In this document: positions 1-22,539 of the stretch, piece by piece
Position numbering within the stretch: the first letter of the stretch is position 1
Layout of the letters: the number at the start of each line of letters is the position of its first letter
Virus record (IMG/VR): IMGVR_UViG_3300028045_001344
Span: 62,001 to 126,000 of that record
DNA length: 64,000 nt
From: a virus
Direction: 5' to 3' (one strand)
Translations under genes and position numbers: made by a program
The notes under the pieces: generated by a model
Database searches by the model: none
What the model was told of the DNA's origin: nothing
Seen by the model: the letters and a program-made list of their open reading frames with translations, nothing else

Positions 1-393
1 CCCAGTAACACCACCACCATAGATAGATTCACATGCGTCATCTCCAAGTTTATCATTCGCTGTAGTAAAGTCGAGGAAGAAGATAAGACCACTCGGCAAG
101 CTCATAGGCTGAACCGAGACAAGCTCATTCGCTACCAGTCCGCCGAATACACGACGAACGATTGGAAATGCAACTGCTGCAAATCCTTCAACATCACCAC
201 TAGCCATGGTGGAAGCTTCACGAAGAAGTTCCTTGGCTTGGTTTTCTAGAAGACATGCCATACTGTTTTTGTTATGGTCGCCTTCAATTCCTTCTAAAAG
301 TCCAGTGTTCTCCCATTTTGATAAGAGAGCATTGGCTTCACGCGAAAGATCACGATTAATGATTCCTTCGGTTAGTTTTTCAATAATACTCAT
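1..393 (-). CDS. 23: Major capsid protein, gp23-like (N-terminal part only)
   Basis: Forms the hexameric shell of the T4-type head. The first 131 residues are present; the rest runs off the left edge. The N terminus follows the T4 gp23 pattern: a basic, Trp-containing helix (LLSKW, residues 23-27), an ENQ motif (50-52), then ELLREAS at 55-61, where L57-R58-E59|A60 fits the prohead-protease consensus at nearly the T4 cleavage position (E65|A66). After this come FAAVAFPIVRRVFGG and NELVSVQPMS, the start of the mature protein, where T4 has VRRAIPN and CGVQPMN. The start at 393 has an AAGGAG ribosome site. The gene lies 15 bp downstream of the scaffold gene, as gp23 follows gp22 in T4. Identification is firm; the missing C-terminal part cannot be judged. 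Confidence 0.93.
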   Translation of the reverse strand, partial: MSIIEKLTEGIINRDLSREANALLSKWENTGLLEGIEGDHNKNSMACLLENQAKELLREASTMASGDVEGFAAVAFPIVRRVFGGLVANELVSVQPMSLPSGLIFFLDFTTANDKLGDDACESIYGGGVTG

Positions 394-408
394 TATTTTT
401 TTTTCTCC

Positions 409-1623
409 TTAAATAATGCCCGCAAGTCGCCTCAGTCTATCGACTTGATTTTGACCAGCGGGTTGTTTTTCTTTATTTGATTTCAATATAAGCGGATTGT
501 TTTTATTCACTGCTTCATTCAATGTCTTCGGAGCAGTCTTGCTCTTGGACGAAAGATTTTCATTCAATGTATCATAAACAATCTTGGCTTCTTCTACTGA
601 ACCAACTTTTGAAATTGCTTCGACAAGTTTTTCTTTTTGTCGCTCATTCAAGGAGTCGCTTTTCAGGATGCGATTCGTGTAGATTAATTTTGCGTTAGAA
701 AAATTAACTTCTTCTAACTTCTTTGTTGCCTTTAGTGCAATACTCTTAAGATTATCAAAATCTTTTTTCTGCTTATTCAATTTAAGCTTCTGAGATTTAT
801 TTTGCTCTTGCAACTTCTTTAATGCTTGGCGCAATTGTTCTTGCTCCTCTGCAAATTCTGTGTCTTGTTCTTGCGCTAAAGCAATATCAAGACCTCGTTC
901 GTTTTGTCCCATAGTTGGGTGTGTATGAAAGATATCCCCGGAAGGAACATTCTTCATATCGACTACTAATGCCTCGACGATTTCATCAAGTAGTTCTTCG
1001 TCAAGTTCTTCGTTCTCATCAATTTCTTGTTCTCTCGAATCCTCAAAAATTTCAGGGGCGATTTTTTCAGCACCCTCGTTTTTGGGTTTGTCTTTCTTTT
1101 CTTCTTCTTTAGATTGTTTAATGGCTTTATCTCGCGATCCTTTCCATTCAGCTTCTTTAGATTCAACTTCGCCATCACCATCATAATCCTCGTAGGCATC
1201 TTCCTCATTCAGTGCTTGGGCAATTGCCTCAAGAAGATTGTCCTCGCTCACTTCAAAGAGTTCTTCTTCGTCGGCAGCAACTTCACCACCAAGATCCATT
1301 TCTTCTTCGCTCTCGGCTGCTTGTGCTGCCGCGACTATTTGATCTAGATCAAGAACCATTGGCTCTTCTTCTTCGGGGCACGGACACATGTTCTCGCCAT
1401 CGGTCGCAGCAATCGGCATTTGATCGGCGATGCCTGGTTCCGCATCAAGACCTTCCTCGTCTTCCATACCAAACATATCTTCCTCTTGTTCTAAAAGGGA
1501 TGTGACGGCTTCTTTGATTTCTCCTGAATACTTTTCGAGAACTTCTTGTTCTGCGTTTTTCATCGCCGCTTCTCGAAGTGCTTCGGCGTCAATGACGGCT
1601 TGATCTAACATAGTTGATGACAT
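409..1623 (-). CDS. 22: Prohead core scaffold, gp22-like
   Basis: Probable internal scaffold around which the capsid assembles and which the protease later degrades. Identification rests on position (protease, then this gene, then capsid) and composition: very rich in Glu and Asp, with no recognisable enzyme domain. L16-R17-E18|A19 near the N terminus matches the cleavage motif seen in the capsid protein (LRE|A), and further LxE sites occur (for example LLE|A near residue 131). Roughly residues 225-345 are Gln/Glu/Lys-rich and read as a long coiled coil; the C-terminal end is basic. At 404 aa it is longer than T4 gp22 (about 270 aa), mainly through acidic inserts. A good GGAG ribosome site precedes 1623, and a repeated AT-rich element lies 31 nt upstream of the start. 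Confidence 0.8.
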   Translation of the reverse strand: MSSTMLDQAVIDAEALREAAMKNAEQEVLEKYSGEIKEAVTSLLEQEEDMFGMEDEEGLDAEPGIADQMPIAATDGENMCPCPEEEEPMVLDLDQIVAAAQAAESEEEMDLGGEVAADEEELFEVSEDNLLEAIAQALNEEDAYEDYDGDGEVESKEAEWKGSRDKAIKQSKEEEKKDKPKNEGAEKIAPEIFEDSREQEIDENEELDEELLDEIVEALVVDMKNVPSGDIFHTHPTMGQNERGLDIALAQEQDTEFAEEQEQLRQALKKLQEQNKSQKLKLNKQKKDFDNLKSIALKATKKLEEVNFSNAKLIYTNRILKSDSLNERQKEKLVEAISKVGSVEEAKIVYDTLNENLSSKSKTAPKTLNEAVNKNNPLILKSNKEKQPAGQNQVDRLRRLAGII

Positions 1624-1943: not shown

Positions 1944-4900
1944 TTATCCTTCTCCACAAGTTCCTGCATCTGAATTAACTAAAGTTCCCGACACACTGTT
2001 TCCAGACAGATCTAGTACGTTAGTAGAGCCTGGTCCATCGCATTCCATATCCAAATAAGAAGAAAGGGTTGCGGCTGCGGGTGCGGCGGCTCCGTCGTTC
2101 ATGTTTGTTAAGGTGCCGTTATAGCCGTTACCAGTTTGATCTGTTAGTGTTGAACTTCCGGGTCCATCTTCCATATTCCAATAAGCAAGAAGATTGGAAG
2201 AACTGATGGCGTTTGGTGCCGTACCTGGAAGGGACGCTAAAGAAGCATTATCCAAAACAACATCCCAGACACCTACTGCATCCATTGAGCCTGACCAATA
2301 ACTTCCCAAATCGCGACTATGAAGTCCCATTAGCCATTCGCGATTTGCTTTATCATCTGAAGAATCCCACGATGTACCGGTAAAGCCTCCATTATCATCA
2401 ATTTGCACACCATTACGATACATTGCGACATCAGTTCGAGCCGTCATTGGGTTTTTCCAAGTCATTGCTAAATGAACCCAGGAATTCACATCCCCATTAA
2501 AAGAAGAGTCAGCAGGAGAAGCTGAATAGGCATAGTAACTGCCATCACCAACATTCGCATAATATGTTAAATTTGCTCCTCTACGCCATTGTATAATCGT
2601 TGGTCCAAGATTTGCATTTCCACCACCTGCTGGGCGACCTGCGCCGATTATACCTCTGGTTTCATCACCAGCGCCAATCCAAAACCAACCAGCAATTGTT
2701 CCTGAAGATGGTTGCAAAGCATTACTTTGCGCCGAGCCGACTGTACCACATTGAATATAGTCATCTATTCCATCAAAGGCAAGCGCATAACTTCCTGAAA
2801 CTCCCGCAACCCAGTTACCCGGATCTGACGACCCAGTCGCCGTAGTTATAGCATTTGCTTTTGCGCCCGCAGCAAGATTAGCAATACTGCCAGTATCTAA
2901 AACACCATCCCAAAATGAAACTTCATCGATGTTTCCAGGCCAGGTGTACCCCGGCGCTGGCAATAGGCCCGTGGTTGACAAAACACCAATACGGGTGTCG
3001 CCCGTTCCAGGCAACGGGGTGGCTGTACTTTTTGCTCCATCAGTCCCTTTAACGCCGTCTACCCATAATTGAGAAACATCCGTATCTGTATTGTAAGTTG
3101 CAACCACATGTCTAAAAGTTGTGTTGGGGCCGCTGCCCCAGACTTTATAGGCTTGGTCGGTGGCATTATAATACGAACCCACTGAAAATCTCATTGTCTG
3201 AGATTGTCCATGATTATATTGTATATTATAGCCATCCGTCCAAGCTTGCGCTGCCGTGTTGCTGCTATGACGACCAATTATAGTTTCATAAGAGTCTAAA
3301 CCAGCAGGGTTATTTGCCCAAAAAGAAATAGAAAAGCTTTCGTTTCCATCTCCAAGAGGCAAATATGAAGATGATGCTATATTAATGGAAGTATCTACAC
3401 CATCACACAAGAATGAATACTTCCCAAGTTTTCCTTGACCCCATGCACCAAAATCCGCAACATCCATATTGACGTTCATGGTTCCATTGTGTGCGGTTGA
3501 TGGATGAAAAGATGCTGTCGTAACATCATAAACTGTTCTGGATGTCGGAAAGTTTCCTGAAACTGGGTTTGAGTCGCCAATTTCCCAGTCATAATATACT
3601 AAGAGTGAGCCGGTTGTGCCGAGATCAGAAAACCCAGTCAATGTACCATCATAACCGTTTGCAGTTTGATCTGCGAGAGTGGTTGAGGGAGGACCGTCTT
3701 CCATGTTCCAATAACTCACAAGATTTGAAGAACTAACAGAACTTGGTGGTGTTCCCATTAGTGATGCGATTGCGGCTGGGTCCAAAACAACATCCCATAC
3801 GGCTACATCGTCCAATTTTCCACCCCAGTCATAAAATCCAACAGCCCGACTACTAACACCCAAATTAAACTCACGGGATACCCTGTCGCCCACAGGATCA
3901 AAAGTGCTACCACCATCAAAAGATCCTACTCCGGGTGAAATAAAGTTTCCATTCACATACATTCTTAATTTGTCCGGATCATCAATTGAACTTTCCCAAG
4001 TCATGGCTAAATGATGCCAGGTGTCGAGCGCCCAGCCAACGCCAACGGAGGACCAAGCAACGTTATAAACAAGTTTTAGGTTGGTGCCGTCGCCAGCATT
4101 TGCATAGAACGTCTGCTGTCCACCTTGGTTCCAAGCTTGGAGAGTGAGGAGCTTATTATTAGCACCACCAGTATTCGCAAAACTTGCTCCCATGATTGTG
4201 TAATGACCAAGAACAGACATATTCACCCAACATGCGTATGTACCCGATGATGGTTGGAGCGCATTGGAAGCTGCGCTGTTCGCAGCACCTATCGACACAT
4301 AATCAGTAGTGCCGTTAAAATCAAGCGCATAACTTCCTGAAACTCCCGCAACCCAAGCACCATCACTTGCATTTGGCGGCGTAATGCTGTCGGCTCTTGC
4401 GCCAGCGCCAGAATTATAAAGTTCAGAAATTTCAGTGCTTGTAAGTTCAGTATTCCACACAGCCATTTCGTCCAAACTACCAGCAAAAGGCTCAACTTGA
4501 GTTCCACCACTCCAATACCCACCAAGAGTATAGCCTACCGGACTGTCATAGATATCAAAAGATCCACCAACACCGCCGCCAGATTCATCTAGTGAGCCAT
4601 TAATATAAATTTTTGCAGTTGGTGTGGAAGCGTCAATAACAACTGCCACGTGCGTCCAAGTTCCAGCCACTAATGCTGTTCCAGTTCCAGTTAAACTTAT
4701 GTAAGGTGATGTCCAGTCTCCTGCTGATGTAGCAAACACACGGATATACCCATTCGGACTTGGTGTCCCGCCAATTCCAATAGCCCAACCCCGTTCATTG
4801 GCAGAAGTATACCTATATTCGGATGCTATAATCGCATTGGCGTCGAAGTTATCAGCTTTTACCCAACCAGCAATTGTTATTTTATCTGTATATTGAGCGT

Positions 4901-5078
4901 TTAAGGTATCGGATAAGATGTATTCATTGGTTCCATTAAAACTCATCCCATAATTGCCGACTTTGCCTTGAACCCAATCGCCGCCATAGCAGTATGTGAA
5001 GTCGCAAGATGCGCCACCACCGCCAGAATTACTTGAACGGTTTGCGCCGAACATTGTGAATGGAAAAGGAAAAGGCAT
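1944..5078 (-). CDS. Adhesin-like virion protein with four LamG domains
   Basis: A 1,044-residue protein made almost entirely of concanavalin-like (LamG/LamGL) jelly rolls at about residues 43-230, 250-440, 552-730 and 763-970. Each shows the family pattern: a Y-x-L-x-F-x-G start, a WV or FW strand, a TWHH(L/V)A or WVHLAMTW centre and a DE(M/V)(A/S)(V/F)W end. Linkers with the motif WNMEDGP occur near residues 457 and 968 and follow domains 2 and 4, so the protein is a doubled two-domain unit. LamG domains commonly bind glycans, so attachment to host or environmental polysaccharide is likely. The gene sits in the head cluster, beside a fibre-like gene and upstream of the scaffold, so the product could decorate the capsid or form a fibre. 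GGAGG precedes the ATG. The short Gly/Ser-rich N terminus carries no signal peptide. Confidence 0.8.
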   Translation of the reverse strand: MPFPFPFTMFGANRSSNSGGGGASCDFTYCYGGDWVQGKVGNYGMSFNGTNEYILSDTLNAQYTDKITIAGWVKADNFDANAIIASEYRYTSANERGWAIGIGGTPSPNGYIRVFATSAGDWTSPYISLTGTGTALVAGTWTHVAVVIDASTPTAKIYINGSLDESGGGVGGSFDIYDSPVGYTLGGYWSGGTQVEPFAGSLDEMAVWNTELTSTEISELYNSGAGARADSITPPNASDGAWVAGVSGSYALDFNGTTDYVSIGAANSAASNALQPSSGTYACWVNMSVLGHYTIMGASFANTGGANNKLLTLQAWNQGGQQTFYANAGDGTNLKLVYNVAWSSVGVGWALDTWHHLAMTWESSIDDPDKLRMYVNGNFISPGVGSFDGGSTFDPVGDRVSREFNLGVSSRAVGFYDWGGKLDDVAVWDVVLDPAAIASLMGTPPSSVSSSNLVSYWNMEDGPPSTTLADQTANGYDGTLTGFSDLGTTGSLLVYYDWEIGDSNPVSGNFPTSRTVYDVTTASFHPSTAHNGTMNVNMDVADFGAWGQGKLGKYSFLCDGVDTSINIASSSYLPLGDGNESFSISFWANNPAGLDSYETIIGRHSSNTAAQAWTDGYNIQYNHGQSQTMRFSVGSYYNATDQAYKVWGSGPNTTFRHVVATYNTDTDVSQLWVDGVKGTDGAKSTATPLPGTGDTRIGVLSTTGLLPAPGYTWPGNIDEVSFWDGVLDTGSIANLAAGAKANAITTATGSSDPGNWVAGVSGSYALAFDGIDDYIQCGTVGSAQSNALQPSSGTIAGWFWIGAGDETRGIIGAGRPAGGGNANLGPTIIQWRRGANLTYYANVGDGSYYAYSASPADSSFNGDVNSWVHLAMTWKNPMTARTDVAMYRNGVQIDDNGGFTGTSWDSSDDKANREWLMGLHSRDLGSYWSGSMDAVGVWDVVLDNASLASLPGTAPNAISSSNLLAYWNMEDGPGSSTLTDQTGNGYNGTLTNMNDGAAAPAAATLSSYLDMECDGPGSTNVLDLSGNSVSGTLVNSDAGTCGEG
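2781..2813 (-). repeat. 33-bp copy A of an internal LamG-gene duplication
   Basis: Identical over 33 bp to 4323-4355 in the same gene. Both encode the start of a LamG domain (VAGVSGSYAL). The spacing of 1,542 bp is exactly 514 codons, which indicates an in-frame tandem duplication of a two-domain unit, recent enough to retain stretches of DNA identity. Confidence 0.85.
4323..4355 (-). repeat. 33-bp copy B of the internal LamG-gene duplication
   Basis: Partner of 2781-2813, identical over 33 bp. It marks the beginning of LamG domain 2, as the other copy marks domain 4. Confidence 0.85.
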
Positions 5079-8549: not shown

Positions 8550-9149
8550 TTAGTCTCCTATAATATCGTTCAGTATTCTATTGATTCGATCAGCCTTTGA
8601 ATATGGTTGTTTTATTCTTGATTCGGTAAGGCTCATAAATGCACCTTGCGTTGAGGGTTCAGAAACTATATCAAAACATATCAACTGAAGATCTTCTTCT
8701 ACAATCGTTTTCCCTTGGCTTTCGTGAACAGACCCCAAAGCCCGAGACGAAATCCCTAAAGTAACCCCGTCGTTTACTAGAGATTCTAAAATTTTTCCTG
8801 CTGGTGTAGATAATACTTTAATTTTTCCCTTCAAGTCTTTACCTTCCCACCACAAATCAGTAACCATGTGAGAAGCATTTTTAAGATTGACAACTGAATC
8901 TTCTGGATGGTCTAATTCTCCACAAGCCCGGTTCTCCTTGACTGTCTTCATATAGTTTTTGACTTCTCTTTCCAGAACTAGTTTAGGATAGACACGACCA
9001 TTACCGTTTTGCTCATCTACTCTCTGCATAATTCCTGATAAGAAAGTTGCGCCATTCTTAACTTGTATCTTTTCCGCCTCTGTTAATAAATCTTCACAGA
9101 CTCCGCCCGCGCACAATTCATAATATTCTCTAAGAAGGTACTTGCTCAT
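8550..9149 (-). CDS. 21: Prohead core protease, gp21-like (peptidase family S80)
   Basis: Matures the prohead by cutting core and shell proteins at (L/I)-x-E sites. The 199 residues align with T4 gp21: RVYPKLVLEREVKNY (T4 has RLYPKRILEKAVKDY), GELDHPED with the catalytic His near residue 80 (T4 GELNHP), DLWWEGKDLKGKI (T4 DMWWKGNDVYGRA), and GISSRALGS near residues 131-139 with the nucleophilic Ser (T4 GVSSRGLGS). Its own N-terminal segment carries L22-T23-E24|A25, a plausible autoprocessing site. Position between portal and scaffold matches T4 order. It follows the FtsZ-like gene by 4 bp. Identification is firm. Confidence 0.93.
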   Translation of the reverse strand: MSKYLLREYYELCAGGVCEDLLTEAEKIQVKNGATFLSGIMQRVDEQNGNGRVYPKLVLEREVKNYMKTVKENRACGELDHPEDSVVNLKNASHMVTDLWWEGKDLKGKIKVLSTPAGKILESLVNDGVTLGISSRALGSVHESQGKTIVEEDLQLICFDIVSEPSTQGAFMSLTESRIKQPYSKADRINRILNDIIGD

Positions 9150-9153
9150 TTTA

Positions 9154-10362
9154 TTATCTCCCGTCTAATCCATTCACCGACAAGACCGCAACAAGCCCTG
9201 GTAAGTTCTCTTTGATATATACCCCAGAAAACAAGGTTTCGCACCTTCCACCGACATAAGACACGGCTGCGTCTAAGTGTTTGCTAATCTCTGGATCTGT
9301 TGCCATTTCCGGTGTAATAATTAGTAGCATCGTTCCTGTAACGGACTTGCCTTTAGGCATGGGACATGGAGAACGCTTAATACAATTTTGATAAATAGCT
9401 GCGCCAAGTTTAGGATCTGCTGGATTTGCTATCATAGTCGAGCCCAAAAACATTCTTCCCTCGGTAGCCAAGCAACGCCCAAGATCTTTTGAATCAAAGG
9501 TTTGAACATAAGACTTTTCCGAAGCTAGTTTTAAAACTTGATGAAACAACTTAGCAAATGTAGAATTCGCTACGGGATACATATTTAGGATACCAACCTT
9601 TCCGCGAAGCAATTGTGTCTGTCTCTCGTTATCAATAAGAATATGAGGATGTGGTGCTACATCATTAGCTAGGGAGAGCGCATTTTTAGAGATAGTGTGG
9701 TTAAGAGATTCTTGCGCCGTGGGCCAAGATATAATATAAACCACTTTACCTTCACCCTGCACCGAACTAAGATACCGCTCGAACACTTCATGAAGTTCTA
9801 CGCAGGAACTTCCGGTTCCTCCGCCTCCGCCAGCTAAAACAAAAATCCAATCCACTTTTCCAAGTTTGGTACGAATAGCGTCTTCAACAACCGCACTGTT
9901 TTCACTAAACACTTTCTTTCCATAAGCGACATTTTTGGCTACGCCATCAGCGTCAGGAATAAGAATTAAGTGGTCCGCGTCTACACCTTCCGGCTGATCC
10001 TTTTCAGTAGTATTGAGAAGTAGTGTTTTATTAAATCCTAAATCTAAAAAAGCTTTGGCTAGTTTTCCACCAGCACCACCAACACCAATAAAGGCACAGT
10101 TTAAAGCAGACACCGCTTCATTCTCGGGAAGTTGCTCATCATGCTGAATTGTGATTTCCTCACCATAGTGCTCAATAAACCCAAAGTCTTCGGCATCAAA
10201 AGTTTCAAAAGAGGTGCTAGTCACTGGCTCATCATTTGGTAAACTAAAAGCATCTGCTTCTGTGATTAATTCCTCTTTTACTTCTTCTTCCGGTTTTGTT
10301 TCTTCAATTTCACCAGCAGTAATTTCTTCGTCTACATCTGGTTCTTGCTCGTCGTCGATCAT
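9154..10362 (-). CDS. FtsZ/tubulin-superfamily GTPase in the head gene cluster
   Basis: A 402-residue protein. Residues 1-85 are an unusual acidic extension. From about 88 the FtsZ/tubulin GTPase fold follows: FIGVGGAGGKLA (FtsZ IGVGGGGGNA), the glycine-rich nucleotide loop AGGGGGTGSS near 175-184 (tubulin signature), ILIDNERQ near 235 (FtsZ PNDRL region), and FDSKDL near 285-290, which I align with the FtsZ T7 loop VDFADV; both acidic residues are kept, so GTP hydrolysis on polymerisation is plausible. Known phage members are PhuZ, which positions heads or a phage nucleus, and plasmid-type TubZ. Here the gene sits between core genes and the protease, so a role in head assembly, head positioning or as a structural protein are all possible. 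It could also be a non-polymerising relative. Confidence 0.8.
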   Translation of the reverse strand: MIDDEQEPDVDEEITAGEIEETKPEEEVKEELITEADAFSLPNDEPVTSTSFETFDAEDFGFIEHYGEEITIQHDEQLPENEAVSALNCAFIGVGGAGGKLAKAFLDLGFNKTLLLNTTEKDQPEGVDADHLILIPDADGVAKNVAYGKKVFSENSAVVEDAIRTKLGKVDWIFVLAGGGGGTGSSCVELHEVFERYLSSVQGEGKVVYIISWPTAQESLNHTISKNALSLANDVAPHPHILIDNERQTQLLRGKVGILNMYPVANSTFAKLFHQVLKLASEKSYVQTFDSKDLGRCLATEGRMFLGSTMIANPADPKLGAAIYQNCIKRSPCPMPKGKSVTGTMLLIITPEMATDPEISKHLDAAVSYVGGRCETLFSGVYIKENLPGLVAVLSVNGLDGR

Positions 10363-10365
10363 TTC

Positions 10366-10479
10366 TTATCTCCATTCATTATAAAAAGCGGGCGCAACCC
10401 GCGTGACTATGCATCCTGATTTGCATCGACGCACTGGTCGAAGCATACGAGATTTGCTTGTCCATAGATTTTCTAACAT
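10366..10479 (-). CDS. Possible 37-aa basic Cys protein (contains a hairpin)
   Basis: A short reading frame that fills the gap exactly. Its ATG at 10479 overlaps the upstream stop (TAATG) and its stop lies 3 bp before the FtsZ-like start codon. The product is basic with a CKSGC motif (RRCKSGCIVTRVAPAF). The fit to both neighbours argues for a real gene or a translational coupler. Against it, the region also contains a terminator-like hairpin and there is no length or domain support. Confidence 0.4.
   Translation of the reverse strand: MLENLWTSKSRMLRPVRRCKSGCIVTRVAPAFYNEWR
10383..10402 (-). terminator. Rho-independent terminator-like hairpin upstream of the FtsZ-like gene
   Basis: On the minus strand GCGGG-TTGCG-CCCGC forms a perfect 5-bp GC stem with a 5-nt loop, followed directly by TTTTTA. 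It lies inside the possible 37-aa gene, between the small membrane protein gene and the FtsZ-like gene, so it would separate or attenuate transcription between portal-side and protease-side head genes. The short stem suggests partial termination. Confidence 0.6.
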
Positions 10480-10772
10480 TATTTTTCACCCCACATTTTA
10501 AAGTTTATTCCTTGATCTCCAAAGATCATGTTTCCAATATATGAAGTTCCAGAACTCACGCACCCCAAAATAAGTGCCGTGGTTATGGAATATTCATAAG
10601 TAAATAGTTCTGTTTGTCCGTTTATCGCCCACAAAAACCATCCGACATGAAACCCTATACACATGGGACAATGAAACAAATGATATGATGGTCTGATTTT
10701 GTCAAATATTTTAGCATACACTAAGAGTTGCGTTAAGCCATAAGCGGCTAAAACAAAATATACTAGGCTCAT
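10479..10772 (-). CDS. Small membrane protein with CPMC motif
   Basis: A 97-residue protein with about three membrane segments (SLVYFVLAAYGLTQLLVY, IGFHVGWFLWAI, TTALILGCVSSGTSYIG). HCPMCIGFHVGW at about residues 34-45 resembles the C-x-x-C-x-G-F/W motif of the DUF1360 membrane family. I chose ATG at 10772 because it overlaps the upstream stop as ATGA; the alternative at 10799 would use TTG. It is encoded among head genes, where T4 has no membrane protein, so its role is unclear; anchoring of prohead assembly at the inner membrane or a redox/metal function via the two Cys are guesses. Confidence 0.65.
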   Translation of the reverse strand: MSLVYFVLAAYGLTQLLVYAKIFDKIRPSYHLFHCPMCIGFHVGWFLWAINGQTELFTYEYSITTALILGCVSSGTSYIGNMIFGDQGINFKMWGEK

Positions 10773-11329
10773 GAATAATAGCCGGAATAATATGTCCAAG
10801 GATTATTTGGGTTGATTGAGCCCTTGTCTGGTGACTCAGGAACTTCCCCTAATACAGTCGAATCCTCTGCGTCGGGCTCCGTATACCAATCATCAATTTC
10901 TTCTTCGTATCTTTCTTCTGCTTCAAACTTTGGTCTTTCTTGTTCTATGAATTGATAAGTAGAAAGAAGCACGACTTGTGTAGCATCTACACCCTCGTCA
11001 ATGGCTTCAGGATAGCTCCCCTGAATGCTCGCATATACATCACCCGCATGGACTGATGATCTTTCGACGACGCCTTTTTGTGACAGGAAATTGAAATAAT
11101 TATTTTGAATCTGGTAGATTTCATCACTCATTTCATTTTTTGGAAATGTAATAATCTTCTTGTTTGCGTGGTCAATAACAATATCCAAGTCCTTATGATC
11201 CAAAACCATAATTTTTCCATCAACGGTCTTACGAGCAATCAAAGAAATCTGTGGGTGTGTTTCACTTTCTTCTTTGATTTCTTCTGCGCTCAAGGCATCA
11301 GGAGTAACATTTATTTTAATTGACGCCAT
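10769..11329 (-). CDS. Head-cluster protein of unknown function
   Basis: A 186-residue protein, moderately acidic, beginning ASIKINVTPDALSAEEIKEE. The middle has short beta-like strands (KIMVLDHKDLDIVID, KKIITFPKNEM) and a helix (DEIYQIQNNYFNFL). The C-terminal third is acidic (RYEEEIDDWYTEPDAE) and ends in an aromatic tail (NPWTYYSGYYS). It occupies the slot between portal and protease where T4 has the small core proteins gp67 and gp68, so a core or chaperone role is possible, but I see no sequence match. It overlaps both neighbours by a few bases, indicating coupled translation. Confidence 0.6.
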   Translation of the reverse strand: MASIKINVTPDALSAEEIKEESETHPQISLIARKTVDGKIMVLDHKDLDIVIDHANKKIITFPKNEMSDEIYQIQNNYFNFLSQKGVVERSSVHAGDVYASIQGSYPEAIDEGVDATQVVLLSTYQFIEQERPKFEAEERYEEEIDDWYTEPDAEDSTVLGEVPESPDKGSINPNNPWTYYSGYYS

Positions 11330-12152
11330 CGGATTTTATCTCATGTATCAAGCCTTGTACCTTGATCACTTTTTGTATCATTTCCTTTTTTGGTTCTTCA
11401 TTTTTAAATTCTTCTAAGGATTCTATTATGGCTTGAACCTTTTTTGTCATAGCCGCATCACTTATAATTTCTTCCATCATTAAAGATTTTTTCAAATCCT
11501 TTTTCAGTCTAGATATCTCCTCGTTCAAATATAACTTTAGACGAAGACCGTTGTCCACAAAGGAAGAAACAAATTTAGATAATAGTTCCTTCTGTTCTTT
11601 CAGGAGTTCACCAGAGTATTCAGCATTAAACTTTTTAGTAAAAGTCTTATATACCAAGTTGTCAATAGGAACCATTTGATCTTTGTCTTTAGCTTCAGAT
11701 AAGATCATTCCTTTTATGATCTGATTCTCTAATAGAACTTTTGTTTTTATGGTACTGCGTTGATTAAAGATTTGATAAATAGTAGCAAGAGATTTATAGT
11801 TAGGAACAAAATTATTGAAAGTGTCTTCTGGAAGCATTTTCTTGATTTTGCGAACTAGTTTATTTTGTTCCGATAATAGTCGTTTCTTATCAATAACCTC
11901 TCTCTGCTTAAGCACTTCCGATAATATTCTCTCTGCCGTGCGAGGGTGAGCATTTTGAGTTTTTGTCAGCGAATGATATAGTTTCAATTCTTGATGGAGA
12001 GAAGTATCAAACCTAAAAGATTCTTTTATCAGAGAGGCTATTTGTGTTTTGGAACTCTCATCTTTTTTCAAGATTGCTTTTGTTAATTCTATAACCAGAG
12101 CCTCATATAAAAAGGCACTATTCTTTTTCTTGTTGTGTTTAAATTTTACCAT
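11316..12152 (-). CDS. Helical portal-adjacent protein, possible head-core component
   Basis: A 278-residue, basic, almost entirely helical protein beginning VKFKHNKKKNSAFLYEALVIELTKAI, an N-terminal pattern I associate with a family found next to the portal gene in marine T4-like phages. The rest is Lys/Glu-rich with heptad-like helices (SRLKKDLKKSLMMEEI, IIESLEEFKNEEPKKEMIQKVIKV). I set the start at ATG 12152, which has a GGAGAAAAG site and overlaps the portal stop by 14 bp. No catalytic motif is visible. Its location suggests prohead initiation or core assembly with the portal; the function is unproven. Confidence 0.62.
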   Translation of the reverse strand: MVKFKHNKKKNSAFLYEALVIELTKAILKKDESSKTQIASLIKESFRFDTSLHQELKLYHSLTKTQNAHPRTAERILSEVLKQREVIDKKRLLSEQNKLVRKIKKMLPEDTFNNFVPNYKSLATIYQIFNQRSTIKTKVLLENQIIKGMILSEAKDKDQMVPIDNLVYKTFTKKFNAEYSGELLKEQKELLSKFVSSFVDNGLRLKLYLNEEISRLKKDLKKSLMMEEIISDAAMTKKVQAIIESLEEFKNEEPKKEMIQKVIKVQGLIHEIKSDGVN

Positions 12153-14061
12153 TTTTTGCTTCTTCTCTTTTCTCCAAATTCTCAATAATTTGTTGGATTT
12201 CTCTACTATTACTTAAAACTTCGTTTTCTACCTTGGAGTCCTCAGTATAATTAGTTTCGGTATTTTCCTTTATCCCTTTGTATTGTTGCTTAAATCCATC
12301 AAGACCTGGGAAAACATTTCTTTGTGTATTCTTTCCCATCTCGGAAGCCACTTTCCCCATCATGTTTTTTCTTCTTCCGGCTTCTTCTCGATCATCATGT
12401 TTTTCTGGGATGTATGCTTTTCCTTTATCCTTTGGTGTATGGTGGGGCTTTGGGTTTTGAGTTCTCCACTTCATATCATTGCGCTTCCCCGGTTCAGCCA
12501 ATAACGTTTCGTCTTCGCCGCTGTCTTCATCATCCCCGAGGTCATCACCGAGGTCATCACCGAGGTCATCACCACCAAGGTCATCACCAAAGTCGTCGCC
12601 GCCTTCTGCGTCTCCGCCTTCTTCAGCGGTGCCCTCAAGCATGGCTTCAAATCTCTTGTCATAAAACATTTCGCGCTGGTTGCGAACAATTTCTTCATCG
12701 GATAGATTGAGAAGATTTTTTGCTACCCATTGTTTACTAAAGTATCCTTCAGTCGCAGCACCAGCAATTTCGAATTTTGTTCTCCAATGCTCTAATTCCT
12801 GAAGTTCAGCAATTTTAGAAGGGCTATTGAGATGTAATTTAAAAGATAATAAATCCTTTCCTTTGAAGCCTAGTGTATACAAATGAACAACCGCAATCTT
12901 TTCCAGTTCTGATACCACACTTCTTTGAAGCCTTTGTATTGTTCTGGCAAAACGCACATCCTTTTGTGCAAGGGTAGTTTTTTCGTCACCACCTTCATCT
13001 GATTGCGTAAGGTATGATGGTGGGACTTTCAACGCAGAAAATAGTTTATCACGCAAATATTTTACATCGTCCACATCACCCGTGTAAGTTCCGCCTGGAA
13101 GACTTTCAACTCTCGTATTAGAAGCTCCTCCGCGAACAGGGATAAAATAATCTTCATCGGTGCTCATGGGGTTGTAGCGCAAATCAACACGACCAGTTTG
13201 AGAATCAATAACTTGATTTCTTTTCATCTGTGTTACAATGCGTTGCATATGCTGTTCAATTTCCTTTTCAGGAATTCCACCAACATCCACATAAAAAACA
13301 CGTCGCTCGGGTGAGCGCACAACACGATAAGCCATCATCGCATCTTCTAATAGTTGTAGTTGTCTCCAAATGCGTCGGCAAGGCTCCAAAACAGAAGTTC
13401 CATAAGGAGCATATTTATCGTTTCCTAAAATTCGGAAATGTCCTATTTGCCAATTCTCAAAAGTAAGGCCACCACTGTTCCATTGGAATTGAACATAGTT
13501 GGGGTTTGTTTTATCTTCACCCTCCATTCTTTCTACTTCCATAGACGGAAGTCCAATGACGTTGGTGATTCCCAATTCTTCGTTAATATCAAGATATAGA
13601 AACATATCCCCAAATTTGCACATTGATCGACACCATCCAAAAATATTAAACTCAATATTCAAAACATCATAAAACAGTTGTGATAATATCTCTTTGATTT
13701 CTTCGTTGGGACAATTGATTAGAAGTAGTTTTTGAATTGCTGACGATGTGGTCATTTCATCTGCATAGATGTCTAACCCTGAAGCAATCTCGGGCATGTA
13801 TTCCATTTGATCAAAATCAATATATCGCTCCGCTCGGTTGACGTTTTGATATGCGGCTGTTCTAAAATTATCAAAAGGATTATGAGTTTGCTTTTTAAAG
13901 CTCAAGCCACCAGGAGATGTAAAACTATATTTATTCAACTGACGACGCTTAAGCTGACGTGGGTTTTGCTTTCGCCGATCAGTAATAGGACCAGATAAGA
14001 GTCTAGTTAGTGCGCGGTACAATGGGTTCTGATCATTGTTGGGGTTTCTTTTATTTTCCAT
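12139..14061 (-). CDS. 20: Portal vertex protein, gp20-like
   Basis: Forms the dodecameric ring through which DNA is packaged and to which the tail joins. The 640 residues contain the gp20 core: YIDFDQMEYMPEIASGLDIYADE near residue 85, FGWCRSMCKFGDMFLYLDI near 145, EPCRRIWRQLQLLEDAMMAYRVVRSPERRVFYVDVGG near 230-270, and VKYLRDKLFSALKVPPSYL near 335. These match the T4-type portal in order and spacing. The C-terminal region, from about 485, is a low-complexity acidic tail with repeated GDDL units, followed by a basic stretch; T4 gp20 (524 aa) lacks this. The terminase gene is 3 bp upstream. Identification is firm. Confidence 0.92.
   Translation of the reverse strand: MENKRNPNNDQNPLYRALTRLLSGPITDRRKQNPRQLKRRQLNKYSFTSPGGLSFKKQTHNPFDNFRTAAYQNVNRAERYIDFDQMEYMPEIASGLDIYADEMTTSSAIQKLLLINCPNEEIKEILSQLFYDVLNIEFNIFGWCRSMCKFGDMFLYLDINEELGITNVIGLPSMEVERMEGEDKTNPNYVQFQWNSGGLTFENWQIGHFRILGNDKYAPYGTSVLEPCRRIWRQLQLLEDAMMAYRVVRSPERRVFYVDVGGIPEKEIEQHMQRIVTQMKRNQVIDSQTGRVDLRYNPMSTDEDYFIPVRGGASNTRVESLPGGTYTGDVDDVKYLRDKLFSALKVPPSYLTQSDEGGDEKTTLAQKDVRFARTIQRLQRSVVSELEKIAVVHLYTLGFKGKDLLSFKLHLNSPSKIAELQELEHWRTKFEIAGAATEGYFSKQWVAKNLLNLSDEEIVRNQREMFYDKRFEAMLEGTAEEGGDAEGGDDFGDDLGGDDLGDDLGDDLGDDEDSGEDETLLAEPGKRNDMKWRTQNPKPHHTPKDKGKAYIPEKHDDREEAGRRKNMMGKVASEMGKNTQRNVFPGLDGFKQQYKGIKENTETNYTEDSKVENEVLSNSREIQQIIENLEKREEAKNGKI
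12538..12588 (-). repeat. 12-bp tandem repeat coding the portal GDDL tail
   Basis: Three perfect tandem copies of a 12-bp unit (plus strand GAGGTCATCACC, 12538-12573) followed by a 15-bp variant. They encode repeated Gly-Asp-Asp-Leu in the acidic portal tail. Slippage at this repeat would change tail length in frame. Confidence 0.9.
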
Positions 14062-14063
14062 TT

Positions 14064-15653
14064 CTATCCTTTTATAATCCAGCCGAAGTCTTCATAAAGT
14101 TTTTTAGCTTCTTGTATTCTATCACTACTTTCCACACTTTTGTAGCCGGTCATGCCGGGTATTGTAGTATTTAGTTTTGTGTTTGATACAATCATCGCGT
14201 TCAGTGTTGCCCTCTTAAATTGTAAGTCGCGGGTATTCTCCTGTAAGACCGTATCTCTAATCCAACAAGTTATAGCCAGAGCCATAACTAGGTCGTCATT
14301 ATAGCTTCGCTGTGCTTCTGGTCTTCCGTTTCTCCATACAAATGTTTTTAGTTCTTGATAAGTCCTCTCCGAATTTATAGTAATTAGTTCGTTGCGAACG
14401 AATTCTTCTAACTTGGCGACGATGAGCGGTCGTGTCTTTTGTGAAGTGGTGAAGCCTGGAACAGAGTTAGAAATTTGCTCGGCTTCATATTGTTCAATAT
14501 ATTGATGAGTTCCTTTAGTAGAATAATATAAATTTGGATAACCGGCATCAATGAGTTTTTCCAATACCGAGAAACCGATATTGTTGTTTTCAACAACCAG
14601 CATCGCATTTCCATATTCTTTTCCAGCATCAAATAAAATCCTCGCAAACAAATCAGTCGTAGGTTTGCCTCGATATTCGGCAACCTGAACCATCGTGTTT
14701 GTATTAAAAATGTGAAACACTGAATAATCAGCGCCGTCGCCTCGTGAAACATCACCAACTAATAGATACTTGTTATCTGGATCATATTGTTCCCAGATCC
14801 AAAAGTTTCTATCAAAACCTGTTTGGTGTTCTGGACTGCGACAAGCTAGTGCCATCTTATTTAAATTATCCGGGTGAATAACTGTTTCGCCTGAAGCATT
14901 AAAGTTGCACTCATACTCTTGTGCAACTTTACGGCGCGAAAGGTTTCTAGTTGTTTCATCGAACCAGGCTTGATCTCTTTCCGGGTGTAATGTCCAATGA
15001 AGGATCGTGGGGTGAAAATCATTTTCGCCAGCTTGGGCAGAAACATAAGTTTTATGAAACCAGTTGCCCACCCCATTAGGAGAAGACAAGGCAATACAAC
15101 GGCCGCCCGCTGCCATTGTAGGTTGAAGTGCTGTCCATAATTCACTGAAGCCATCGATATGGGCGGCTTCGTCAATTACTAACAATGAGAGTGCTTCAGA
15201 GCGACCAGCATCAGCCGAAGTGGACGTTGCTTTAATTTCAGAACCGTTACTCAAAACAAATGATGAACGATTATCAATGGCAATTTTGGCGATCTGATCA
15301 AACCAAGGAGGTAATAATTTGATCATCGCTTTTACTTTTTTTACAAGGTTGGCTGCTGTGCTAAATTTCGTTGCAATAACAAGAACATTTTTATCACGAT
15401 GAAAAAGAAGCATCCACGAAACATATGCGGCTGTAATTGTTGAAATACCCATTTGACGGGATTTTAAAATAACGTTGTTACGGTAGTCATTAAACTTCTG
15501 TAAAAGATCTTTTTGGAAGTCCCAGGTCTTAAATGCAATTTGACCACGTTGAGGGTGGGCAATCTTACAATAATTGTCTATAAAATAAACTGGATCTTTG
15601 CCGCACTTAACAAGTTCTCGGACAAGTTCTTTTTTGGAAAGATACTGAGACAT
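14064..15653 (-). CDS. 17: Terminase large subunit, gp17-like
   Basis: The packaging motor ATPase and headful nuclease. In 529 residues: the N-terminal ATPase with Walker A-like KSRQMGIST (64-72), Walker B LLVIDEAAHI (157-166, D161 and E162), and SPNGVGNWFHKTY as the coupling region; then the RNase H-like nuclease with LLVGDVSRGDGADY near 297-310, MLVVENNNIG near 350, and NDDLVMALAI near 450, which supply the acidic metal ligands. I chose ATG at 15653; a TTG two codons earlier is less likely. The portal follows after 3 bp; in T4 the sheath and tube genes (18, 19) come between, and here they are absent. Identification is firm. Confidence 0.94.
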   Translation of the reverse strand: MSQYLSKKELVRELVKCGKDPVYFIDNYCKIAHPQRGQIAFKTWDFQKDLLQKFNDYRNNVILKSRQMGISTITAAYVSWMLLFHRDKNVLVIATKFSTAANLVKKVKAMIKLLPPWFDQIAKIAIDNRSSFVLSNGSEIKATSTSADAGRSEALSLLVIDEAAHIDGFSELWTALQPTMAAGGRCIALSSPNGVGNWFHKTYVSAQAGENDFHPTILHWTLHPERDQAWFDETTRNLSRRKVAQEYECNFNASGETVIHPDNLNKMALACRSPEHQTGFDRNFWIWEQYDPDNKYLLVGDVSRGDGADYSVFHIFNTNTMVQVAEYRGKPTTDLFARILFDAGKEYGNAMLVVENNNIGFSVLEKLIDAGYPNLYYSTKGTHQYIEQYEAEQISNSVPGFTTSQKTRPLIVAKLEEFVRNELITINSERTYQELKTFVWRNGRPEAQRSYNDDLVMALAITCWIRDTVLQENTRDLQFKRATLNAMIVSNTKLNTTIPGMTGYKSVESSDRIQEAKKLYEDFGWIIKG

Positions 15654-15662
15654 ACACAATAA

Positions 15663-19395: not shown

Positions 19396-22300
19396 CTACG
19401 CAGTAACATTCGCATATCCATCTTTCTTTTCTATAGTGATGATTGAGTCCGCAGCATCTTTTAAGTTATCAAGATGAGAAATTAAAATAACAGTTTTGAA
19501 AATAGAAGTTGTAATATCGAGAATACGCACAAAGCCTTCCATTCTTTCAGCATCTAAAGCAGTACCGGGCTCGTCTAAAATAAACAATTGTGATTTGGGT
19601 AATGAAGAAATATTTGTGAACGCCAAACGTATTGCCATCGCAGCCACAGTTTTTTCCGCACCACTAGCCATTTCTAATGGACTAGGATCACGATCTGGTT
19701 GTTGGATATAAATATCTAGACGATTGTCGTCCGTCTCAAAGAGCACTTGGAAATCTACTACATTCGCAAGTATCTTGGAAATCTCATTATTAATTGTTGG
19801 CAAACTCTTTTTGATTATGTTATATGCAATACCGTTCGGGTGCATACAACGCATATACAGATCGTGTGCTTCATAATCATTCTTTAGGTTTTCGCACTTG
19901 GTCTTTTCTACTTCGAGATTTTGAATTCTATGTTCGCTAAACCCATGAAGTTTATAAAGCCTTAACAATTCACTTTCGCATTCCTCTAGATTGATACCGC
20001 ACTTCCTAAGCACAGAAATCTTTAAGTTCTTATCTTTAACAATCCCTTCTAAATCTTCTATGACCTCCTTATTATCATCATAAAACTTTTCTTTCTCTTG
20101 GAGTTCTCTTATTTCGTGTTCTATGATCAATTTCTTTGAGGATAGGTTCTCTATCAAAAGTTCATCAGTAGGTATCTGATTCTCTAAATCTTTTTTGAGT
20201 TTCAGTAGATCCTCAAACTTGGCAAGATGGCTCTCTACATTATCAATTTCTAAAGAATTCATTTCCACTTGAATTGATTGGGACTCCTCCTGTTTAGTTT
20301 GTTGACCAATTTGAACTAATGGAATTTTATTTTTGGCTTCATACGCATCACGAATAAATTTACAATGTGAAAATTCAGATCCACAAGGAACCTCTTTCAA
20401 TAACTTCGCTCGCGTCTCAAATTGAGATAATTCAGTTTTACTGGCTTTTAGATCTAAAGTGATATTCACTAGTTCTTTTTCGAGTTCTAGATATTTTCGC
20501 TTCTGTGAAAATAGAAAATCCTCATCAAACGATTTAATGAAATCGTTAGCTTTAGTAATTTTGTTTTTATTTTTGATGTTCTCATCAGTCTTGTGTATTA
20601 TGTCTTTTTCGTATAGTAACAACCTCTTCTCTGACTGAGATATGGAATTACGAATATTAAGAATATCAATGATTTCTGTGGGGGCTGATTGAATTTTATC
20701 TTCTAGATCTGAAATCTGATCCTTTAGAACAACAGCCTCCTTCTTTAATATCTCACAACTATTTTTTCTTTTCATCGTCGCGGCTTCGTTATCAAGAAGA
20801 TCTTTATGGGCTATCCTTATGTCTTCATCATAATCAACCGCATCAAGAACTTTAATCTCGGATTTGATATCGGCTGCATCTTCCTTGGCTGTCTTAAACT
20901 TTTTATCAAAGATTTCTAAATCTAAAAACTTTGCCAATATTTCTTTACGCCTTGTAGAGCCTTCATTAATAAATGCTAGCGCACCCAATTGAGAACTCAT
21001 AGAAGTTATTAAGAAATCGTCAAGACTTCCAAAATATTTCATAATATTCTTGTCGGTGTCTGAGCGAGTAAGCCCATTTAAAGATTCTTCCTTTTCAGTC
21101 GCTATGTCCCAAGATTTAAAGTCTACAACAGTTTTAGCCTCAACTGTTTCTGCCCCTTTTAGCCGCTTGAGATACTTGCTGGATTCTCTCCTGATTGTAT
21201 ATACTTTGTTGCCTCGCCTAATCTTAACCTGACCAAAGCCTTCGGTCTTGTTGTTATTGATTATGTTGAGGTTCTTGCGTGAATTCTTTGAAATTGAGTT
21301 GTAGATCGTATACAAAAGTGAATCAACGATACTGGACTTGCCTGAAAAGTTACGACCATAAATCCCAGTAATTCCACTATAATTGGTAAAGTCTATGCGA
21401 TTGTCTTCACCATAATTAAACAGGTTGCTCCACTCTAGTTCCAAGATTTCAAAATCCACATTACGATAAGTCTCGTCATTGTTCTCGACAATCTGTTTAT
21501 ATTTTTTATTTAGATCCCGGATCTTCTTTTCAAGAGCTTCATCAATTTTATAGTCTTCTAGATATTCGCCAATTAGTTTTTCTTGAACTACAAGATCTCT
21601 GAGGTTTTCTTTTTGAAAGGAGTCTCCTATCTCTACACCGTTGGTAAACGTAGATTTATTCACGACCGTAATTGATTCTGGCTTGTGCCGTTTTTTTGCA
21701 ACATCCACAGCCTTCTTTAGTGCTATAGCAGAAATACTATTCTCTACCACCAATCGCAAACGAGCACCTTCAGGAACAGAAGTTTCGGGAACTTTACCAT
21801 CCGTGGTAAGAGGTAGTGAGATAAATGGTTTTGGATTTGTAAGAGTAACGGGTCTAACAGTAAAATCTTCTTTACTTTCAATATCCCAAATCAAGAAACC
21901 TTTACAAGTTCCTTCGCCATGATTTTGTTGGATAGTGCTACCAGCATAGCGAACGCGGCCGGCTTTGTCCATAATTTGATTTGTGAGATGAATATCTCCC
22001 AACATCGCATAATCAAATTTATCAAAGATCGAAATGTCATGCTCGCCAATATCCATCTTCCAGCCTATGTCTGTTTGACAACCACTAATGGAGCCATGAT
22101 AAAGAGCAATATTTATTTGATCAGGATTGGATGGCTCTTTCCAATTTTCTTCATCAAACACGCTCAACACGTTTAAGGTAAACTCGTGACCCATATCAAC
22201 TTCGCAAGAGTTCTTTAGTAAATGTAGGTTGGAATGATTAAGAGATTTTACGATTGGAGTGATTGCATCTTGTCTGCTTGTGTTTCTTAAGTTGCCGTCG

Positions 22301-22539
22301 TGATTGCCTAAGATGATATATGTTGGGGCAATCTCCGCTAAATTATAAAGAAAGTCAGAAGTCATCTCCACATATTCAGGAGAAATCTGTGTCTTGGTGT
22401 GGCATATGTCGCCACAATGAACAATATAATCCACCTTCTCTTTTCGGAGAGTTTCATATATTTTATTAAATATAATCTTATATTCGGTGTGATATTTGAG
22501 ATTGCGAATATGGGTATCCGCGATGTGAGCAAACTTCAT
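19396..22539 (-). CDS. Single-chain SbcD-SbcC (Mre11-Rad50, gp47-gp46) recombination nuclease
   Basis: A 1,047-residue fusion of the two subunits that T4 makes separately as gp47 and gp46; they resect DNA ends for recombination-dependent replication. Residues 1-340 are the Mre11/SbcD phosphoesterase: HIADTHI (5-11), HCGDICH (41-47), LGNHDGN (77-83), LYHGS and LGDIHLTNQ. From about 365 comes Rad50/SbcC: ELEWSNLFNYG, Walker A GRNFSGKSS (395-403), a coiled coil, a hook-like C-GSEFSH-C pair near 718-726, the returning coil, ABC signature ASGAEKT near 956, and Walker B LFILDEPG near 985. The hook spacing C-x6-C differs from canonical C-x-x-C. There is no Shine-Dalgarno; TATAAT lies 8 nt before the ATG. 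Confidence 0.92.
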   Translation of the reverse strand: MKFAHIADTHIRNLKYHTEYKIIFNKIYETLRKEKVDYIVHCGDICHTKTQISPEYVEMTSDFLYNLAEIAPTYIILGNHDGNLRNTSRQDAITPIVKSLNHSNLHLLKNSCEVDMGHEFTLNVLSVFDEENWKEPSNPDQINIALYHGSISGCQTDIGWKMDIGEHDISIFDKFDYAMLGDIHLTNQIMDKAGRVRYAGSTIQQNHGEGTCKGFLIWDIESKEDFTVRPVTLTNPKPFISLPLTTDGKVPETSVPEGARLRLVVENSISAIALKKAVDVAKKRHKPESITVVNKSTFTNGVEIGDSFQKENLRDLVVQEKLIGEYLEDYKIDEALEKKIRDLNKKYKQIVENNDETYRNVDFEILELEWSNLFNYGEDNRIDFTNYSGITGIYGRNFSGKSSIVDSLLYTIYNSISKNSRKNLNIINNNKTEGFGQVKIRRGNKVYTIRRESSKYLKRLKGAETVEAKTVVDFKSWDIATEKEESLNGLTRSDTDKNIMKYFGSLDDFLITSMSSQLGALAFINEGSTRRKEILAKFLDLEIFDKKFKTAKEDAADIKSEIKVLDAVDYDEDIRIAHKDLLDNEAATMKRKNSCEILKKEAVVLKDQISDLEDKIQSAPTEIIDILNIRNSISQSEKRLLLYEKDIIHKTDENIKNKNKITKANDFIKSFDEDFLFSQKRKYLELEKELVNITLDLKASKTELSQFETRAKLLKEVPCGSEFSHCKFIRDAYEAKNKIPLVQIGQQTKQEESQSIQVEMNSLEIDNVESHLAKFEDLLKLKKDLENQIPTDELLIENLSSKKLIIEHEIRELQEKEKFYDDNKEVIEDLEGIVKDKNLKISVLRKCGINLEECESELLRLYKLHGFSEHRIQNLEVEKTKCENLKNDYEAHDLYMRCMHPNGIAYNIIKKSLPTINNEISKILANVVDFQVLFETDDNRLDIYIQQPDRDPSPLEMASGAEKTVAAMAIRLAFTNISSLPKSQLFILDEPGTALDAERMEGFVRILDITTSIFKTVILISHLDNLKDAADSIITIEKKDGYANVTA

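Follow-up and report, generated by a model that had tools for sequence, protein, structure and literature searches.

An FtsZ/CetZ-type tubulin-superfamily gene predicted in uncultured T4-like phages

The window, a stretch of 64,000 nucleotides from a viral contig that is 151,553 bases long, carries part of a T4-type head cluster on the minus strand. Its order runs from the large terminase subunit through the portal, three small genes, the gene of a predicted tubulin-superfamily protein and an S77 prohead protease to further genes, a scaffold-position gene, the major capsid protein (MCP), neck, sheath and tube (Table 1). The tubulin gene is a real open reading frame (ORF) on the same strand as the rest of the cluster, the plus strand across it being dense with stops, and all three motifs listed in a preliminary description of this DNA were found in its product: GVGGAGG at residue 93, GGGGGTGSS at residue 178 and FDSKDL at residue 289. 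The glycine signature loop G-G-x-T-G-[ST] of the tubulin/FtsZ superfamily is present and invariant, as are the T7 acidic residues that in this superfamily complete the active site of the neighbouring subunit (GGTG, D290 and D293 each in 127/127 sequences of type I, the subfamily to which this gene belongs). In the set of a second, divergent subfamily (type II), the outer glycines and both T7 aspartates are likewise invariant (85/85), and the glycine-loop motif occurred at a mean of 0.0 in 20 composition-shuffled windows. An apparent in-frame TAG in one relative was an artefact of a reading begun upstream of the start, and its ORF is intact. The location between core genes and the prohead protease was correctly described, whereas the assignment of that protease to S80 was not (Peptidase_S77 4e-30 versus S80 0.014).

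Table 1 Features at the tubulin locus and in the adjoining head cluster (window coordinates).
Feature	Coordinates	Strand	Evidence
Start of the major capsid protein gene (gp23), the rest lying beyond the window	1..393	-	Head-cluster analysis
Scaffold-position gene upstream of MCP	409..1623	-	Mel-JY01 has a homologue at the matching position
Prohead protease, Peptidase_S77 (gp21 type), 4 bp downstream of tubulin gene	8550..9149	-	Pfam 4.4e-30, phrog_207 1.7e-53
Tubulin-superfamily gene (type I T4-like phage tubulin), 402 aa	9154..10362	-	ORF, Pfam/PDB profile, model/Foldseek
Globular FtsZ/CetZ-type GTPase and C-terminal domain, residues 86-399	9166..10107	-	AlphaFold2 pLDDT ~97, Foldseek CetZ/FtsZ/TubZ
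FDSKDL, T7 loop with catalytic pair D290/D293	9481..9498	-	Both Asp 127/127 type I, 85/85 type II set
GGGGGTGSS tubulin signature loop (T4), residues 178-186	9805..9831	-	GGTG 127/127
GVGGAGG, first phosphate loop (T1), residues 93-99	10066..10086	-	Motif read in sequence
Disordered acidic N-terminal extension, residues 1-85	10108..10362	-	Composition, relatives
Acidic-aromatic motif (E/D)DF(G/D)F(I/V)ExY, residues 58-66, candidate binding peptide	10165..10191	-	Conservation
Basic microprotein ORF, 37 aa, conserved, upstream of tubulin gene	10366..10479	-	RRCKSGCxxxRVAPAF, window clade only
Terminator-like hairpin GCGGG-TTGCG-CCCGC and T run, between upstream genes and tubulin gene	10388..10402	-	Frequency in region no higher than in shuffles
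Small hydrophobic protein, upstream neighbour	10479..10799	-	Weak phrog_781
Core-region gene, function not assigned	10769..11329	-	Order conserved in window clade
Conserved head-region gene, homologue of Microcystis phage Mel-JY01 WWT39306	11316..12185	-	Homology
T4-type portal (gp20)	12139..14061	-	Pfam 1.1e-78
Large terminase subunit TerL (gp17 type)	14064..15659	-	phrog_2 1.9e-50

Upstream of the tubulin gene, a T4-type late promoter (TATAAATA) was not found as a conserved feature, and a promoter scan returned no more matches than it did in shuffles. The microprotein ORF (MLENLWTSKSRMLRPVRRCKSGCIVTRVAPAFYNEWR), whose codon variation is mostly third-position, overlaps the hairpin. The small hydrophobic protein carries a CPMC motif and is kept in the window clade, and it also lies near the protease in relatives whose tubulin gene has moved.

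Profile and structure searches agree on the identity of the protein. The Pfam Tubulin profile (PF00091) matches at E=2.4e-6, with a score of 28.4 bits that lies below the curated cut-off of 33 bits, while among solved structures sequence similarity is highest to CetZ (6e-10) and FtsZ (3e-5), and a profile of 100 relatives searched against the PDB retrieves CetZ (3zid, 5e-21), TubZ (1e-14) and FtsZ (2e-13). A first model, built from 25 relatives, had a pLDDT of 72; a second, built with AlphaFold2 from 100 relatives, reached ~97 over residues 85-399, its five models being close in mean confidence. Foldseek comparison of the second model with the PDB returned CetZ (1.4e-20), TubZ (7e-19) and Staphylococcus aureus FtsZ (1e-18, target-normalised TM ~0.78). 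The model and Foldseek reveal the two-domain fold joined by H7, with a long helix (residues 258-279) between the domains, and in the model the last strand of the C-terminal domain (residues 390-399) ends the chain; nearly all type I sequences have only 0-6 residues beyond the last aligned position. The identification as a tubulin/FtsZ GTPase, which a fold without the tubulin GTPase core would have undone, is borne out by a complete FtsZ/CetZ fold in the predicted structure, and the product of this ORF is, as modelled, a tubulin-superfamily protein.

Among known members of the superfamily, archaeal CetZ (PDB 3zid, 4b45) is the top match by sequence and structure and heads every search, with FtsZ and TubZ close behind, as ranked by search scores. 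CetZ and the phage protein share a GGTGSS-like loop and complete GTPase and C-terminal domains, but identity is only ~22%, and the phage protein is viral, has a long acidic N-terminal tail and shows no archaeal link. The fold and the T7 aspartate pair are also common to FtsZ, although the phage protein has neither the C-terminal linker nor the conserved C-terminal peptide of FtsZ, falls far short of the FtsZ equivalog cut-off (20.8 versus 295.2 bits) and reaches only ~20% identity to any FtsZ in structural alignments. TubZ of Bacillus plasmids and plasmid-prophages resembles it by structure and profile. A C-terminal helix and tail are features of both PhuZ and TubZ; the phage protein lacks the C-terminal tail of TubZ and shows no TubR-like neighbour or iteron array in the window, and it lacks helix H11 and the acidic tail of PhuZ, its own acidic tail being N-terminal. 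PhuZ of phiKZ and 201phi2-1 is likewise a phage-encoded member of the superfamily that probably forms an intracellular filament, but phiKZ PhuZ (gp39) does not match the phage tubulin profile (hhalign probability 0.6%), and relatives of PhuZ score no better than about 1e-9 to 1e-10 in the structure search. Other viral tubulin-fold proteins, unnamed or automatically annotated, are found in phrog_17961 and in uncultured Caudovirales entries labelled 'FtsZ' (UniProt A0A6J5RW92), but identity to A0A6J5RW92 is 17% and the PHROG match is weak (0.011 for type I, 1.9e-7 for type II).

The acidic N-terminal extension noted in the preliminary description is real, with 31 D/E against 2 K/R in the first 86 residues. 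It is of low confidence or disordered in both models and is negatively charged in 99% of 126 relatives (median length 62 aa, median charge -12). Within it, the aromatic positions of the candidate binding peptide are strongly conserved in type I (F60 in 120/127, F62 in 122/127 and Y66 in 114/127). Type II proteins (L268 9044-10183 and relatives L272-L354) instead show (D/N)IPxLxIEDF at the N-terminus, which by eye approximates DIPxF and may do so by chance. In FtsZ, DIPxF forms the core of the C-terminal peptide through which FtsA and ZipA are bound.

The family is widespread in uncultured phages. Searched at the protein level, 50,697 deposited phage genomes yielded no similar sequence, phage G ORF 138 alone appearing at E=0.1, and among cultured phages there was no carrier and no close homologue. 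The cultured phages with the most closely related portals are immuto and Mel-JY01; neither gave a match in this search, and the 361-aa product encoded between portal and protease in immuto was rejected as a hidden homologue, having none of the motifs. IMG/VR yielded 32 close relatives, then 197 and 268 in wider scans, and a scan begun from type II matched 542 stretches of either type, so that hundreds of IMG/VR contigs carry the family in its two subfamilies. Type II, first found in a terminase relative, has ~28% identity to type I. The two types are joined by hhalign over their whole length, with an E-value that is inflated because the type II alignment included three type I rows; the first-look match (3e-40) and the 100-row alignment stand independently of that mixed alignment. 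One contig carries a truncated second copy directly before the full-length gene (L027 7911-8231, the same contig as L123 9896-10216). In the literature covered (open-licence papers) we found no report of this family, the words 'tubulin' and 'FtsZ' are both absent from the Far-T4 paper, and the reviews consulted describe phage tubulins as the PhuZ and TubZ groups only. The family is therefore new in scope, while the superfamily and phage tubulins as such are already known and no new category is created.

The position of the gene varies considerably among relatives. When 126 distinct type I genes were sorted by place, portal/core genes and protease flanked 13 of them (a group in which three short window-clade contigs are counted), protease and scaffold/MCP flanked 4, MCP and neck/sheath genes 35, and gp46/47 and terminase 13; a further 5 sit beside a gp55-like sigma gene and 33 near phoH or a gene labelled NadR, the remaining genes not being placeable. 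On the type I tree the placed genes imply at least about 13 changes of place. Type II is more uniform, with 49/64 genes upstream of terminase at a median of 1.37 kb. The simplest reading is that the ancestral site would have been between gp46 and terminase, with moves later. The tie to head genes in the preliminary description thus holds loosely and not in its specific form: a dedicated role at the prohead is weakened because the type I gene has moved so often and only 13/126 genes keep the portal/core-protease place, yet a link to late virion production is plausible because about half of type I and 49/64 of type II lie inside or just beside the packaging, head and neck module. A position away from head genes in relatives, which the preliminary description named as evidence against its reading, was thus found in part of the family. 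Since the place in the genome is not fixed, synteny indicates no partner.

The gene diverges in step with the terminase and at an equal rate. In 21 contigs with both genes, tubulin averaged 0.70 identity and terminase 0.71, with correlated distance matrices (Mantel r=0.60, p=0.001); because identity and distances track terminase, the tubulin gene is old in these phages, strongly constrained and mostly inherited with the phage. In a separate search, 4/21 contigs of terminase relatives gave a tubulin match. The other 17, which may be incomplete, gave nothing with the wider alignment in a search without a positive control, and ten of them gave nothing with Pfam Tubulin either, in a search that included controls. 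Its apparent absence from these long contigs makes it unlikely that every such phage depends on the gene.

We consider it reasonably probable that the protein forms a GTP-driven phage filament of FtsZ/CetZ type that organises the contents of the infected cell, capsids or phage DNA. Because the T7 aspartate pair and the nucleotide loops are invariant, a GTPase with a working interface, and hence head-to-tail filaments, would be expected from what is known of the family. In such a filament, the T1 and T4 glycine loops would form the GTP pocket, subunits would stack head to tail with the T7 loop setting Asp290 and Asp293 over the GTP of the next subunit, and this pair would trigger hydrolysis and so make the filaments dynamic. 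The acidic extension at the N-terminus, flexible and bearing the DDFDF(V/I)ExY motif, could project from the filament and tether cargo or an anchor. If the gene is expressed late, the filament might move or position large late products, either capsids awaiting packaging or replicated phage DNA, a role akin to that of PhuZ but without a phage nucleus. PhuZ filaments treadmill, move capsids and position DNA (PMC7950403; PMC13282480). Transport or positioning of late products is judged the most likely function because of this analogy and because the gene is often found among packaging and head genes.

From sequence alone, a filament directed at the division machinery of the host would be expected to look no different. 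It is conceivable, if unlikely, that host FtsZ or its partners are the target, being titrated, replaced or drawn into joint assemblies by the phage protein, so that division is blocked or re-sited and the cell stays large. Phage inhibitors of FtsZ are well known, the domain is closer to FtsZ and CetZ than to PhuZ, the variable genome position would suit an accessory effector, and the type II (D/N)IPxL resembles, by eye, the FtsZ peptide core. Against this, the low identity to any FtsZ makes the protein too distant for easy co-polymerisation, neither an FtsZ-type linker nor a C-terminal peptide is present, and D290 and D293 are invariant, whereas known FtsZ inhibitors are small peptides without catalytic residues.

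We regard as improbable a role in head morphogenesis, in which the protein would act at the prohead as a scaffold, as part of an initiation complex or as a packaged core protein processed by the protease. Its position in the window clade, adjoining core genes and 4 bp from the prohead protease, and directly ahead of scaffold and capsid genes in four relatives, would suit such a role, but other relatives have it in the vicinity of a gp55-like sigma gene, of gp46/47 or of phoH. The gp21 protease follows the cleavage rule (L/I)xE, and a conserved LPEN precedes the globular domain; its P1 residue is E in 87/127 sequences but D in 31/127, so it is not a strict gp21 site and lends no support to the earlier suggestion of a packaged virion protein or scaffold. 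A long, near-invariant GTPase core would also be atypical of a consumable scaffold, and related phages with the same head genes appear to have no tubulin gene.

Maintenance of the phage genome as a plasmid by a TubZ-like segregation system is very improbable: TubZ structures are among the best matches, but the window neighbours are a hydrophobic protein and a protease rather than a TubR-like DNA-binding gene, neither tubR nor centromere iterons (TubRC) were seen in the window, only scattered, chance-like short repeats lying near the gene, the chain has no tail past its last strand, and the gene sits among virion genes; on neighbours and repeats in the window we rejected such a partition system. 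That the protein is the PhuZ of an unrecognised nucleus-forming chimallivirus, as its being a phage tubulin and some carrier contigs of 200-293 kb might suggest, is already refuted for the sequence family, as the preliminary description had anticipated, by the lack of a PhuZ profile match and of a PhuZ-type C-terminus, by the absence of an Rpb2-type multisubunit RNA polymerase from all 13 large carriers searched (phiKZ being positive in the same search), by the lack of a chimallin match in 13 carrier records (a search without a positive control) and by the T4-like genome, head genes and T4-type late sigma factor that carriers have instead.

Returning to the trafficking filament, a broader proposal can be made tentatively, namely that these proteins may constitute a third widespread class of phage cytoskeleton apart from PhuZ and TubZ, in which dynamic FtsZ/CetZ-type filaments would transport capsids or DNA in lytic T4-like phages that have no nucleus, whether of ordinary or jumbo size, with cargo held on the N-terminal acidic motif. 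Hundreds of T4-like phages in two subfamilies conserve this protein as tightly as terminase, with catalytic residues intact, and so many uncultured carriers suggest that possession of a cytoskeleton is far wider among phages than is now known. If filaments do form, a phage nucleus would not be needed for capsid or genome transport, and a comparison of carriers with close relatives that lack the gene would allow a test of why a cytoskeleton is needed by some phages. The family also provides a new outgroup for tracing how FtsZ, CetZ and tubulin evolved.

Several features of the window bear on the phage itself. Ribosome-binding motifs precede 18/27 of its large ORFs, compared with 0/36 in Flavobacterium phage immuto, and because of this difference the host is probably not a member of the Bacteroidota; a flavobacterial host, hinted at by the Flavobacteriales MAG titles of some relatives (L034, L035 and L037) and by phage immuto, is accordingly disfavoured. 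A 1047-aa ORF (19396-22539, minus strand) matches metallophosphoesterase at its start and SbcC/gp46 over the rest, and is possibly a gp47-gp46 fusion. Between the protease and the scaffold-position gene lies a 1044-aa repeat protein (1944-5078, minus strand) that by eye appears LamG/concanavalin-like and has no PHROG match. Two giant ORFs of 3847 and 1960 aa (35914-47457 and 51154-57036, both minus strand) are likely to encode tail or baseplate proteins.
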